Shown here piece after piece: positions 15,267 through 20,313 of a stretch of 64,000 nt of DNA (positions are counted from its first letter, which is position 1; every line of letters starts with the position of its first letter). Source of the stretch: Halobacteriovoraceae bacterium (lineage in GTDB: Bacteria > Bdellovibrionota > Bacteriovoracia > Bacteriovoracales > Bacteriovoracaceae); the NCBI GenBank assembly GCA_002712005.1, contig PASP01000014.1:186001-250000 (forward strand). Reading direction: 5' to 3'. The position numbers and the translations under genes are program-made. The notes under the pieces were generated by a model, which saw only the letters and a list, made by a program, of their open reading frames with translations, did not search any database and was not told the DNA's origin.

Positions 15267-15301
15267 TCATTTAAGAGACTAAATATCCGATAAGAGTAGT
15301 G

Positions 15302-16933
15302 ATGAATAGGTTATTGGCGACACTCCTTATATTTCTTTCTTATTTACCTTTGAGTATCCATGCTCAAAAACAGGTAAGTATTTCGGATATGGAAGTATCC
15401 GATGTCATTAATCAGGGAGTCATTACCGTATCAGAAATTTCAGGAACAGTTCTTCATAAGAAACTTAAAACTAAAGATCAGCTTGAGTTAGGAGATACAT
15501 TCTTTGAGACGAGTTATATAGAAACAGATGAGTCGGGATTTACAAAACTCCTTCTTCCGAATAACTCCATGGTTTATATCGGTCCAATGAGTACAATCAA
15601 GCTGCATGAAATAAAAGGAAAATCTAACTCTGCGAGTATTACTTTTGAAGTCATTAAAGGTCGAATACGTATAATAGGCTACAAGGGTGAGCACTTTATC
15701 AAAACTCCTAAAGGAGCAACTTTCTTTTCTCACGCTGATGTCCAATGGGATGTTTATCGTATGGAAAATACAATTGTTTCCGAAGTGATTAAATATATCG
15801 GTAAAGTGCAAAGTAAAGGGGAGATGATAAAGGAGAGTTCTCCTTCGTCACGGCCAGAAGTAAATATAACGGCTATTGATTCCGTAAATAGGCCTTGGGA
15901 ACATTGGTTGGGTAAAAAGGGAGCAGCCAAGGACTATCGAATTACCTATAGAGAGTCTTATAAAGTACCTAAATTTGATTCTTTCTCTGGAGGAAGGTCT
16001 ATCGCCTCTGTTGATGAAGGAAATAATATAACCAATCAAATATCAGAAGAAGAGTTGGATTCAGAATTCATTCTTATCTCTGATGATCAAAAAGAAGAAG
16101 CATACGATTATCCTAAGGTTAGTAAAGCGATATACGTTCACGAAAACCTCTTTGATCATATTCTCATTCATGTTGAAAAGGCTGCAGAAGCTAAGGCAAA
16201 AGAAATTGCTAAAGTTGCCTATCATACAGGCGCTAAAGAGATTATTTGGGATGTGGCCTCTCGGTCTTTAATACGTTGGGGGGCTCAATATGCTCAACTT
16301 GCTGCTGTAAAGGAGATACCGACTAATCTTGAAGCTATGTACGAAGAAATTGAGAAAAGAGATATCAATTTTAAAAAGTCTAAAATCTATGTTGATTCAG
16401 TGGAGAGGATATCTAAGCTAAAAAGTTACACAACAGCTAAAAACACCATTAAGAATAAGGCGACAATAAAAGCAATTCAAGAGTCTCAAGCTTATCTTTT
16501 ATCACTAACAAAGAAAATTGTGACTCCTCCTATGCAATATCAGGTTTATCAAGCGGCCAGAGAAAGTGCATTTAAAGCCGCTGATGAATTTATGGCTGAA
16601 TCTAAATTAGTTAAAACTAAAGATGTTCAAGATCTTGCTGAATATTTAGCCCAGCTTGCGGCGAAGCGCTTTACGGAACGAGAGCTGAATAAAGTTGAAT
16701 TGGATCAGTCTTATCTGGTCGCTTCTCAGGCAGTCCTTGAGGCCACTCAAAGAGGAGCTGATAAGATTGCGACTTATATATCTACAAAAGTTTCAAAGAG
16801 AACTGCCCAACTTTTTAACAAAATGCTTGATCAAGAGGTCGCAGAACGGGCGGCAAGAAACTTAGCCTCTGAAAATCAGCTCCAATTGGGGCAAAAATAT
16901 AAGAATTCCAAGAGAATTGAGCAATTCCGCTGA
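15302..16933 (+). CDS. FecR-domain secreted protein
   Basis: 543 residues from the ATG at 15302; a GTG one codon earlier is possible. A signal peptide ends SIHA. Residues about 40-160 match a FecR domain: VSEISGTVLHKKLKTKDQLELGDTFFE, ESGFTKLLLPNNSMVYIGPMSTIKL and VIKGRIRIIGYKGEHFIKTPKGA. The rest is Ala/Lys/Glu-rich helix (KAAEAKAKEIAKVA, AQLAAKRFTERE), probably extended or coiled. There is no TonB-signalling context; in predatory and gliding bacteria such FecR proteins are often cell-surface components. It diverges from the TPR/barrel gene, suggesting a functional pair. Confidence 0.8.
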   Translation: MNRLLATLLIFLSYLPLSIHAQKQVSISDMEVSDVINQGVITVSEISGTVLHKKLKTKDQLELGDTFFETSYIETDESGFTKLLLPNNSMVYIGPMSTIKLHEIKGKSNSASITFEVIKGRIRIIGYKGEHFIKTPKGATFFSHADVQWDVYRMENTIVSEVIKYIGKVQSKGEMIKESSPSSRPEVNITAIDSVNRPWEHWLGKKGAAKDYRITYRESYKVPKFDSFSGGRSIASVDEGNNITNQISEEELDSEFILISDDQKEEAYDYPKVSKAIYVHENLFDHILIHVEKAAEAKAKEIAKVAYHTGAKEIIWDVASRSLIRWGAQYAQLAAVKEIPTNLEAMYEEIEKRDINFKKSKIYVDSVERISKLKSYTTAKNTIKNKATIKAIQESQAYLLSLTKKIVTPPMQYQVYQAARESAFKAADEFMAESKLVKTKDVQDLAEYLAQLAAKRFTERELNKVELDQSYLVASQAVLEATQRGADKIATYISTKVSKRTAQLFNKMLDQEVAERAARNLASENQLQLGQKYKNSKRIEQFR

Positions 16934-16950
16934 TTCTTTCAGCCTTTTTT
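16929..16950 (+). terminator. Possible weak intrinsic terminator
   Basis: GCTGA, loop TTCTT, TCAGC, then C and TTTTTT. The stem has only five pairs and overlaps the stop codon of the FecR gene. Confidence 0.4.
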
Positions 16951-17022
16951 CCTATAAGTATTTCTTTCCATTTTGTTTAAATTTTTAACACCCTAAAAAA
17001 AACTAATCAGTTATAAAGCTGT

Positions 17023-17040
17023 AACTCATTAAAATAAGGA
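17023..17040. promoter_or_regulatory. Possible activator site upstream of the sigma-54 promoter
   Basis: AGTTA and TAACT arms separated by eight bases, about 10-30 bp upstream of the -24 element, in AT-rich DNA. It could be an enhancer-binding-protein site, although such sites usually lie further upstream. Coordinates are to within a few bases. Confidence 0.25.
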
Positions 17041-17050
17041 TGCTGATTCT

Positions 17051-17065
17051 TGGCACACTCCTTGC
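17051..17065 (+). promoter_or_regulatory. Sigma-54 (RpoN) -24/-12 promoter
   Basis: TGGCAC, five bases, TTGC: an essentially exact match to the sigma-54 consensus (TGGCAC-N5-TTGC), with correct GG-to-GC spacing. It lies in a 260-bp intergenic region and points to the lipoprotein gene at 17195. The start of transcription should be near 17077, leaving a leader of about 118 nt. Confidence 0.85.
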
Positions 17066-17092
17066 TTCTATATAGGCATAACAAATTTTGGA

Positions 17093-17163
17093 TCTCAAGC
17101 TCATGAAGAAAGATCTAACGCCTACTAAGAAGATAAAGGCCTTACATCTTTGAAAGCTTGAGA
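17093..17163 (+). ncRNA. Structured 5' leader with nested stems
   Basis: TCTCAAGCT (17093-17101) pairs perfectly with AGCTTGAGA (17155-17163). Inside, AAAGAT (17109-17114) pairs with ATCTTT (17146-17151), and AAGGCCTT near 17137 is self-complementary. A 16-codon ORF lies exactly between the outer arms. There is no U tract, so it is a leader rather than a terminated small RNA. It is a candidate translational or attenuation control element for the lipoprotein downstream. Confidence 0.5.
17103..17153 (+). CDS. Candidate leader peptide, 16 residues
   Basis: ATG at 17103 to TGA at 17151-17153 encodes MKKDLTPTKKIKALHL, lysine-rich. It starts two bases after the 5' arm of the outer hairpin and stops one base before the 3' arm. 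The ribosome-binding site is poor (only GGAT about 8 bases ahead). If translated, ribosomes would cover the inner stem. Evidence is positional only. Confidence 0.3.
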   Translation: MKKDLTPTKKIKALHL

Positions 17164-17194
17164 ATCAAAAACCTGACTTTAGGGGAGAAGAGAA

Positions 17195-17770
17195 ATGAAA
17201 GCATTAAAAAAGATGAATAAATTATTAGGACTCTCATTGGTTCTTATGGTTATTGCCTCATGTGGTAGTGATAATAAGGTCCAAGTATCAAATGCGGATA
17301 ATACCAGCAACACGAGTGAGTCCACTGCAACAACGGAAAGCGGAGTCGATTCATGTCAGGCAGCCTCAGATTTTTCTGATTTTAGAAATCGTGTTGCCAA
17401 TATGAATTTTATTAAAGAGTCTTATACCAGAGCCTATTACTATTTCTATACATGTGATGAGAAAGAAGGATGGTTTGGAATAAATTATAATAAATGTAAG
17501 GTTCAAAAGACCGTACGTTATGAAAATAGGGACCTTGGTCGTGTAAATCACGAATATGGAACATCAAAAGCCGAAATTAGAGATAGACTTCTCACGATCA
17601 TTGATGAAGCTGTCGATGTTCAAGGTAACGGAACTTACTATGAGATTGAATCTCCAAACGGTGAAGTACGAGGAATTAGTCTTTGTCATACACTCGTAGG
17701 AAACCCAATCTTTTGGCAAAGTGCTGATGATAAGCAAGCTTATCAGTATGCTTACAAAACGAATTACTAA
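17195..17770 (+). CDS. Lipoprotein of unknown function under sigma-54 control
   Basis: 191 residues. Signal peptide with lipobox VIAS-C (C23), followed by a Ser/Thr/Asn-rich tether (NADNTSNTSESTATTES) and a compact domain with about five Cys (DSCQAAS, YTCDEKEG, YNKCKVQK, SLCHTL) and many aromatics. Ser after the lipid Cys region suggests export to the outer membrane. GGGGAGAAGAG precedes the ATG. It is alone between a sigma-54 promoter and a strong terminator, so it is a one-gene regulon member. Family not recognised. Confidence 0.8.
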   Translation: MKALKKMNKLLGLSLVLMVIASCGSDNKVQVSNADNTSNTSESTATTESGVDSCQAASDFSDFRNRVANMNFIKESYTRAYYYFYTCDEKEGWFGINYNKCKVQKTVRYENRDLGRVNHEYGTSKAEIRDRLLTIIDEAVDVQGNGTYYEIESPNGEVRGISLCHTLVGNPIFWQSADDKQAYQYAYKTNY

Positions 17771-17817
17771 ATATGAATTGGTCTCGAAAGGGACCTGTGT
17801 GTGAAGTGTGTGTGAAT

Positions 17818-17849
17818 GGCCCCCGCTCCCCTTGGGGGCCTTTCTTTTT
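17818..17849 (+). terminator. Intrinsic terminator after the sigma-54 lipoprotein gene
   Basis: GGCCCCC, loop GCTCCCCTT, GGGGGCC then TTTCTTTTT. Seven GC pairs and a U-rich tail. Confidence 0.9.
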
Positions 17850-17866
17850 CTCAAATGGCCAATAAT

Positions 17867-18754
17867 CTAGGTCAGAATAAATCCAGAATAAGATTTGATT
17901 TTAAATAGCAATGGAGTTCTAAGGAAACTTCTTTCTCCTGCAACAAATTCTTGGTCTTGAGTATTTAAGTCCGTCCAGTGTTGAGTTTTAGTTTTATCTT
18001 TAAAGAATGTTAATTCAGATAATGTTTTCTGAACTTGGTCGTGATCGACCTCTAAAGAATGGATCGGGTTTTTATTTTGGTGAGACTTCAGAGAAACTGA
18101 TTGGTCTTTATGAATCGTTAATAGAAATGGAGGAAGCTCTCCTTCTTCCAATGAACTTAAGAATGGATCTTTTAAGCTAAGAAGTAGTGATGGAGCAGCG
18201 AGTGTTTTTAATGGCTCAAATAACTTTTCAGTCACTTTATCTGAGGGAGAGCGGCCAATTCCAATATGGAGCAAGTCTTCCTTTGTTTGGTCAAAATAAT
18301 CGAATTTTAAAGCAATATGAAAGAGCTCATGATTTAAATCAAAATAGAAGTATTTCACTCCTGCTGTTGGAGTCCCTTTGCCTGTTCTTAGAGAAATATT
18401 TTTCTCAAAGGAAGGAGAGGACTTTAAGTCACCTTTAAATCTTCGTAGTTCTCCCAATCCAGATATTCTTAGATCTTTCTTATCAGATGTTTGCCATTGA
18501 ACTTTATAAAATGTTCCATCCTCAGGGGGAGCATTCTCACCTAAGAAATTACCGAGTTTGTCGTAGTAATAAGGGATGGCATCACCTTCATCTCTTAGAA
18601 ACTTGAGGTCATTTTGAACATTTCTTTTGATTTCCGATTCGCTTACACCAAAAATTTGAGCAACATGCTGAGTGACTTCTGAAGTATCGATGGGACCCCA
18701 GCGATCTAGGACTTGCATGATTTTACTTAAGCGTCGATGTTTCGTAATTTTCAT
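17867..18754 (-). CDS. Winged-helix N-terminal protein, probable transcription regulator
   Basis: 295 residues, cytoplasmic. Residues about 1-60 look like the winged HTH seen in DeoR/WYL-type regulators (LSKIMQVLDRWGPIDTSEVTQHVAQIFGVSESEIKRNVQNDLKFLRDEG). The remainder (ISGLGELRRFKGDL, YFYFDLNHELFHIALKFDYF, LHIGIGRSPSDKV, FLLTIHKDQSVSL) is beta-rich, but I cannot assign it to a WYL domain with confidence. It starts 14 bp after a membrane Ser/Thr kinase gene on the same strand, so the kinase may act on it. Confidence 0.6.
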   Translation of the reverse strand: MKITKHRRLSKIMQVLDRWGPIDTSEVTQHVAQIFGVSESEIKRNVQNDLKFLRDEGDAIPYYYDKLGNFLGENAPPEDGTFYKVQWQTSDKKDLRISGLGELRRFKGDLKSSPSFEKNISLRTGKGTPTAGVKYFYFDLNHELFHIALKFDYFDQTKEDLLHIGIGRSPSDKVTEKLFEPLKTLAAPSLLLSLKDPFLSSLEEGELPPFLLTIHKDQSVSLKSHQNKNPIHSLEVDHDQVQKTLSELTFFKDKTKTQHWTDLNTQDQEFVAGERSFLRTPLLFKIKSYSGFILT

Positions 18755-18768
18755 ATTAACTCACCTGC

Positions 18769-20313
18769 CTATAAAATAAGAGATTTTGCAAATTCTTGGT
18801 TTTCTCTATCTTGATTGAGGTCGTTAGCAAAAGTAAAGCTTTGAGTAATCTTTAATTCTTGTCTTGTGGGTGGTTCAGGAAAAACGATATCTGCATAAAG
18901 GGCCATAAGACAACTCTTCGTTAGCTGACTTAAGTTTGGTGAATTTTCAAAAGAGATTTTTTTAGCTCGGCCTTTTTGGGCCTGGAGATAGAAGGATAAA
19001 GAAAGTTTACCTTTAGAGCCCTGTGACTCGTAATTCATACATTCTTGAAGATGAGGCTCTTTATTGGCCATAAGTTTAGCGATTTTGGCCTTAAAGTGAT
19101 TATTCTTCTTAATGAGTTGTGCTTTGGCTTCGTAAAGCTCTTGGGGATTCGCTCTTTGTGTCGTGGGTCTTTGTGTAGTGACCCTTTGGGGAGTCCTCTT
19201 GTGATTCGCTAGCTTTTTGGATTTTTTCTTTTTAGTTTTTTTCTTCGAAGCAGTATGTATGGCCTTCTTAGGGAGAGCTTCTTTCTGAATTACTTTCTTT
19301 ACTCGTTTAGAGGGGAGAGCTTTTTTGATTGGTTGAGTATAGTTAGAGACTCTCTTGGTAGACTGTAAAGTTTGAGTAGGGAAATGAGAATTTCTTCTTT
19401 TCTTGTGCATTTGGGATCGGCCCAAGAGTTCGAGTCCTAATAAAGTTAGTCCGAGGATAATAAAGCTTACGAGAGCAGCAGTGAGATGCTTGCTATTAAA
19501 TTCTGGCCATTTCAATGAATCTAACAACGAATGTACAACGAAAAGAGGATTTTTAAATTCTTTGGGCTCACGAACTTTAGTAGAGCGTACTTTTTTTAGA
19601 TTACGTATTTTCTTTTTAAAAGATAGGCACTTTATTTTTTCAGTCCCTTTAGTCTGTTGGCACAGTTCTTCTAACGTCTTGCCATAGGCGTAGAGGTCCC
19701 ATTTGGGCTCAAAAGAAATTTCTTTTTCTCCGTCATATAGTGCGCTAATTAATTCAGGGCTGAGGTACTGTTCTTTACCTCTAAGTTTCGATTTATCGAG
19801 ATAGCTTCCTGATTTTCTAGAGTCCTCAAAATCAATCAGTTTAACCTTATTGTCTTGAGTGATAATGATATTGTCAGGACTTATATCGAGATGAACAATT
19901 CCCTTTTTATCGTGGAGATATTGGAGAGCATGATCCATCTCCCAGATGAAGTTTTGAATAAAGTGGGAAGTGATCGTTTTCTTTTCAATATGAAGATGGA
20001 GATAATTTCTAAGGGAGATCCCTGCAAAGTATTGGACAATGAGATAGAGGGGAGCTTCCTCTTCTTCGCCTTGTCTACGGATATCGTATACTTTGGGAAA
20101 ATAAGGACTCCAAAACTCTTCAAGTGTTGCCGCTTCTTTTAAGAGGCGTTGTTCGGCTTCTTCCTTTCTTTGGGGATCGAGATCTTCTCGTACTTTCTTG
20201 ATGAGAACTTTGTCATTTTCTTCCGGCCAAAACGCAAGAAACAACTCAAAGCTTACACCTTGAGAAATGCGTTCCAATAACCAAATGTCTTCGTCAAAAC
20301 GAGTACTGCTCAT
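18769..20313 (-). CDS. Membrane Ser/Thr protein kinase with AgmX/TonB-like C-terminal domain
   Basis: 514 residues. The N-terminal kinase domain has ATP Lys in VLIKKV (K39), a catalytic loop HLDISPDN (H141, D143) in place of HRDLKPEN, and DFE (161-163) in place of DFG. One membrane helix lies near residues 280-300 (AALVSFIILGLTLLGLELLG). A long Lys-rich segment follows (KKKTKKKKSKK), then a C-terminal periplasmic domain (LQECMNYESQGSKGKLSLSF to ITQSFTF) of the AgmX/PglI type. The divergent gene at 20422 carries the same C-terminal domain. The DFE change may lower activity or alter metal use. Confidence 0.8.
   Translation of the reverse strand: MSSTRFDEDIWLLERISQGVSFELFLAFWPEENDKVLIKKVREDLDPQRKEEAEQRLLKEAATLEEFWSPYFPKVYDIRRQGEEEEAPLYLIVQYFAGISLRNYLHLHIEKKTITSHFIQNFIWEMDHALQYLHDKKGIVHLDISPDNIIITQDNKVKLIDFEDSRKSGSYLDKSKLRGKEQYLSPELISALYDGEKEISFEPKWDLYAYGKTLEELCQQTKGTEKIKCLSFKKKIRNLKKVRSTKVREPKEFKNPLFVVHSLLDSLKWPEFNSKHLTAALVSFIILGLTLLGLELLGRSQMHKKRRNSHFPTQTLQSTKRVSNYTQPIKKALPSKRVKKVIQKEALPKKAIHTASKKKTKKKKSKKLANHKRTPQRVTTQRPTTQRANPQELYEAKAQLIKKNNHFKAKIAKLMANKEPHLQECMNYESQGSKGKLSLSFYLQAQKGRAKKISFENSPNLSQLTKSCLMALYADIVFPEPPTRQELKITQSFTFANDLNQDRENQEFAKSLIL

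Follow-up and report, generated by a model that had tools for sequence, protein, structure and literature searches.

A probable enhancer-dependent sigma-54 promoter and a lineage-specific leader hairpin upstream of a Bacteriovoracaceae lipoprotein gene

What drives the lipoprotein gene that starts at position 17195 of the window (the whole stretch of 64,000 nucleotides analyzed here), and does the folded leader in front of it regulate its expression? A sequence-only reading had placed a sigma-54 promoter ahead of a leader in which complementary arms enclose a 16-codon open reading frame (ORF), and had proposed that translation of this mini-ORF would refold the leader before the lipoprotein start. 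We favor another reading, to which we give a probability of about 0.8: the locus carries an ordinary enhancer-dependent sigma-54 promoter followed by a lineage-specific 5′ stem-loop that is either neutral or protective of the mRNA. The features on which the argument turns are these.

16974-16990, plus strand: putative upstream activator element TGTTTAAATTTTTAACA (family consensus TGTCTAAAnTTTAGACA), from a de novo motif and its site score.
17051-17065, plus strand: sigma-54 -24/-12 promoter element TGGCAC-N5-TTGC, from sequence, conservation, and the genome's genes for RpoN and activators.
17075-17078, plus strand: predicted transcription start, about 12 nt past the GC of the -12 element, placed by normal sigma-54 spacing.
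17086-17170, plus strand: predicted leader hairpin, with outer stem TTTTGG/TCAAAA plus TCTCAAGCT/AGCTTGAGA and nested stem AAAGAT/ATCTTT, from folding; this genome only.
17103-17153, plus strand: mini-ORF of 16 codons, probably fortuitous (no Shine-Dalgarno sequence, common in shuffles, congeners without it).
17182-17191, plus strand: lipoprotein ribosome-binding site GGGGAGAAGA, anti-Shine-Dalgarno duplex -7.6 kcal/mol.
17195-17770, plus strand: lipoprotein gene, 191 amino acids, lipobox ASCGSDN, family signature CGxDN...ANPV, no Pfam family.
17797-17855, plus strand: predicted transcript 3′ end, with GTGTGTGAAGTGTGTGTG, then a GC-rich terminator-like hairpin, then a T-rich stretch.

The -24/-12 element claimed earlier is confirmed by direct reading of the sequence, and its spacing is correct for an enhancer-dependent sigma-54 promoter. 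Comparison with homologues supports its link to the downstream gene. A profile search found the lipoprotein family in 98 of 129 Bacteriovoracaceae genomes, with the weakest matches resting on the lipobox end only. We analyzed the homologues with usable upstream DNA, leaving out the weak matches L064 and L065 since neither is this type of lipoprotein, and all 51 have a -24/-12 element 53 to 144 nt before the start codon. The same score threshold is passed by 10 of 89 control gene starts and by 2.4% of shuffled upstream sequences. Since it is conserved, the element is far beyond chance. The cultured relative Bacteriovorax sp. DB6_IX carries both this element and the palindrome described below. 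Judging from these comparisons, the promoter appears to be part of an enhancer-driven system common to the Bacteriovoracaceae, a family of Bdellovibrio-like predators.

In the DNA ahead of the -24 elements of the 51 promoters, de novo motif discovery recovered a palindrome, TGTCTAAAnTTTAGACA, with a log-likelihood of 440, compared to 62 for shuffled sequences; this partner of the -24/-12 element had been missed by the sequence-only reading. Scored with a model trained on these very promoters, 50 of the 51 exceed 11.5, as do 6 of 89 control upstream regions. The copy at 16974-16990 is among the weaker matches to the motif and has a site score of 15.7, against 9.4 for the 99th percentile of shuffles. 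No other palindrome site in the window has a -24/-12 element as its partner, and the center of this copy lies 69 bp before the -24 element. Among the homologues, this distance clusters near 48, 61, 68, 79, and 91 bp, in steps of one helical turn, and the clusters were found in different genera. The upstream dyad thus keeps a constant helical face (R of 0.68 at a period of 10.5 bp), with an uncorrected Rayleigh P value of about 1e-10 that is overstated because the homologues share ancestry. Genome-wide, TGGCAYNNNNNTTGCTT occurs nine times and its reversed control not at all. We know of no activator site that TGTCTAAAnTTTAGACA matches; the nearest is TGT-N10-ACA, the site of NifA, and its spacing differs. 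The palindrome has the anatomy of a sigma-54 activator site and is probably bound by an enhancer-binding protein.

The machinery for such a promoter is present. The source genome (G000, 3.96 Mb; its congeners are Bacteriovoracaceae MAGs) encodes both RpoN (E value of 2e-66) and AAA+ activators, with eight clear activator-type proteins carrying the sigma-54 interaction domain PF00158. We infer that one AAA+ enhancer-binding protein would bind the palindrome about 70 bp upstream, that DNA looping would let it remodel an RNA polymerase-sigma-54 complex waiting at the -24/-12 element, and that the remodeled polymerase would start transcription near position 17076. We considered whether the cognate activator is autoregulated and rejected this, as none of the eight activator genes is adjoined by a good palindrome. 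The GAFTGA loop contacts sigma-54, and three activator-like proteins (L032, L033, and L034) lack it in their translations, so these may not act on sigma-54.

About 12 other genes of the same genome pair the palindrome with a -24/-12 element, and nearly all encode signal-peptide proteins or lipoproteins. As read from the translations, they include secreted proteins, lipoproteins, a subtilase-like protease, a DAHP-synthase-like gene, two divergent gene pairs, and one short secreted peptide. This set likely represents a sigma-54 regulon with the standard enhancer-dependent anatomy. Sigma-54 control of the cell exterior, lipoproteins included, is an established theme (PMC3162934). Published promoter mapping in B. 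bacteriovorus centered on FliA (PMC3627812), and a literature text search of partial coverage found no account of a sigma-54 regulon in Bacteriovorax. The analysis adds a defined enhancer motif for one lineage of bacterial predators, along with a set of its envelope and secreted genes that are likely under sigma-54 control.

Several other sigma-54-linked leaders and peptides were observed. Short secreted peptides under -24/-12 elements, one in L017 from position 1501 on the minus strand and one in L129, both end in SSSIDG and are possibly members of an exported peptide family. A sigma-54 promoter at about 1501-1625 of L018 (minus strand) precedes the gene for a DksA/TraR-like protein, read from its translation, and the leader there has three short hairpins (z of -1.8). 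The long leader at L019:1501-1680, before a secreted protein gene, contains the complementary blocks TTTCAGTG..GGGGCC and GGCCCC..CACTGAAA, and its overall energy is not unusual (z of -0.1).

The surroundings of the lipoprotein gene were also recorded. Within 15299-20313 of the window, the lipoprotein gene is flanked on one side by a gene that weakly matches a FecR domain, and on the other side by two genes of the opposite strand, one whose protein belongs to an unknown family and one for a Ser/Thr kinase. In L006, a homologue of the unknown-family gene again adjoins a lipoprotein homologue. Between the stop codon and the terminator, at 17797-17814, there is a GT motif resembling GTGTGAAGTGTGTGTG; it is conserved in the genus (3′ flanks of L038, L039, L040, and L042) and recalls the 5′-terminal GU repeat of the small RNA described below.

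We then consider the leader. The claim that it folds strongly is borne out: a 124-nt segment has a folding energy of -28.8 kcal/mol (z of -3.1), and none of 200 shuffles did as well. The perfect 9-bp arms that had been described, at 17093-17101 and 17155-17163 and 53 bases apart, are present, as is the nested stem (17109-17114 with 17146-17151). The outer stem is longer than that, because pairing of TTTTGG (17086-17091) with TCAAAA (17165-17170) extends it beyond a single A-A mismatch. This makes a full stem of 6 plus 9 bp around a loop that contains the nested stem. The region 17086-17171 folds with -25.9 kcal/mol, a value reached by 0.6% of 86-nt windows. The AT-rich window holds 59 perfect 9-bp inverted repeats, compared with 30 to 58 in ten shuffles. 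The 9-bp arms alone are therefore close to chance expectation, and it is the complete hairpin that stands out. An Rfam scan of the window gave no match above the gathering score, and we set aside a known riboswitch or leader. A terminator was likewise rejected, because no U-run follows the hairpin.

The hairpin was not found elsewhere. At 118 nt, the window's leader is the longest of the 51 homologues, whose median is 43 nt; in six congeners it measures 53 to 70 nt. When the leader is aligned with these six, the promoter and ribosome-site ends are common to all and the hairpin region is an insertion with no counterpart. Conservation of the arms and the mini-ORF had been proposed as a check on the regulatory reading, and it fails: both are missing from the six congeners, the arms being absent rather than compensated. 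Three broader possibilities were also rejected. No DNA match to the leader was found in 129 family genomes, no second copy in the source genome points to a dispersed repeat or mobile element, and structured leaders are not a family-wide feature (median z of 0.05, with 5 of 51 below -2). By these comparisons, the hairpin appears private to this one genome among those examined.

The 118-nt leader would accordingly have gained a stem-loop of about 85 nt whose start lies some 10 nt downstream of the predicted 5′ end. Given that predicted start, a stable stem-loop lies close to the 5′ end and the ribosome site is free; in the folding, the formed hairpin leaves the lipoprotein ribosome site with moderate to high accessibility. 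If the stem-loop is active at all, it may passively protect the mRNA against 5′-initiated decay, which its position and stability make the most likely role, if it has any. The chief competitor accepts the promoter as described and holds that the hairpin arose recently, by insertion or expansion, and is neutral and without function. The hairpin's presence in one genome, the short leaders of all relatives, and the resemblance of both leader ends to those of congeners agree with this. On the other side, an old stem of 15 bp with a single mismatch should have decayed if no selection maintained it, and the lack of a second genomic copy speaks against a common mobile repeat. We hold neutrality to be a serious contender at somewhat less than even odds. 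Protection and neutrality are the two live readings, since a hairpin this close to the predicted 5′ end matches the arrangement that guards mRNAs such as ompA and papA against 5′-dependent decay (literature cited in PMC3997798). Selection for some other role could also lie behind a strong hairpin of 85 nt found in a single lineage.

Sigma-54 control in this family appears to extend to a roughly 95-nt small RNA that has its own promoter and an intrinsic terminator (L016:1501-1640 / L095:1582-1703; G000:C2:78660 onward). The -24/-12 element is followed by GUGUGUGUGUAGGAG..GAAAAAAGGAUUUUUUC..CUCC..AAAUGUCUCUCGAAAAG and then the terminator, whose stem shows compensatory changes; the segments GUGUGUGUGU and AUGUCUCUC are invariant. 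A DNA search found it in 76 of 129 family genomes, and a covariance model matched 77 of the family genomes searched, with four others in the phylum matching only marginally. It belongs to no Rfam family, and a literature text search of partial coverage found no description of such an RNA, making it a candidate new RNA family. We found no palindrome upstream of it, so it is presumably driven by another activator. One could imagine a family-wide sigma-54 program, in which one activator acts through TGTCTAAAnTTTAGACA on secreted proteins and lipoproteins, coupled to this small RNA by pairing with lipoprotein ribosome sites. As a lead, the pairing would involve the invariant UGUCUCUC and the following GAAAAG; the partner in the window would be CUUU-AG-GGGAGA, just before and in the lipoprotein ribosome site. 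Predicted binding averages -9.1 kcal/mol at lipoprotein starts and -7.2 kcal/mol at other starts, a difference exceeded by at least 1 of 30 shuffled queries. Pairing of the small RNA with the leader is favorable, yet inseparable from composition, and we regard the coupled program as unlikely.

Could the leader instead be a translation-sensing switch, in which ribosomes on the mini-ORF open the hairpin and alter access to the lipoprotein start in the manner of attenuation? The ATG...TGA frame of 16 codons (MKKDLTPTKKIKALHL) is real, and so is its placement: the ATG begins two bases past one arm, and the TGA stops one base short of the other. The hairpin is stable, and an ORF fills the 53-nt loop this well in 0.02% of shuffled loops, by a test framed after the fit was seen. 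That neat fit depends on choosing the ATG, because the frame is open further upstream, with a TTG inside the 5′ arm. An ATG ORF of at least 16 codons arises in 15% of shuffled leaders, or 30% with any start codon. No Shine-Dalgarno sequence was found for the mini-ORF: its best duplex, -3.1 kcal/mol, is matched by 42% of random positions, and the region upstream of it sits in the stem. Nor does it contain a run of regulatory codons. When a ribosome-blocked hairpin was simulated by constrained folding, the lipoprotein ribosome site kept most of its accessibility and a few G residues shifted, with no switch-like release or burial. Along with the absence from congeners and the missing terminator, these results do not support the proposed regulatory leader. 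The mini-ORF is most likely not translated, and a switch of this kind strikes us as very improbable. Least credible of all is a fortuitous -24/-12 match, with a separate downstream promoter driving the gene and leaving the hairpin out of the transcript: element and palindrome are kept at matched spacing in the 51 homologues, and the remaining leader sequence has diverged. We return to an enhancer-dependent promoter with a private stem-loop as the favored reading; the leader itself is ordinary, and the value of the analysis lies in the regulon and the small RNA.

How does this arrangement compare with known systems? Like the leader-peptide attenuators of trp, erm, and tna, the window's leader is folded and has a short ORF inside it. 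Unlike them, its ORF has neither a ribosome site nor regulatory codons, constrained folding reveals no alternative fold that reaches the ribosome site or a terminator, and neither ORF nor structure is conserved. A closer parallel is found in the ompA, papA, and aprE leaders, cited in PMC3997798 as having 5′-terminal stem-loops that stabilize mRNA. There too a stable stem-loop stands near the 5′ end, here about 10 nt from the predicted one, and the ribosome site downstream is accessible; the window hairpin differs in having a much larger loop with an internal stem and in not being conserved. The promoter itself resembles enhancer-dependent promoters of the NtrC/NifA type: it has a -24/-12 GG...GC element and a dyad activator site in the range of roughly 50 to 130 bp upstream on one helix face, in a genome with rpoN and AAA+ activators that carry a Fis-type HTH.
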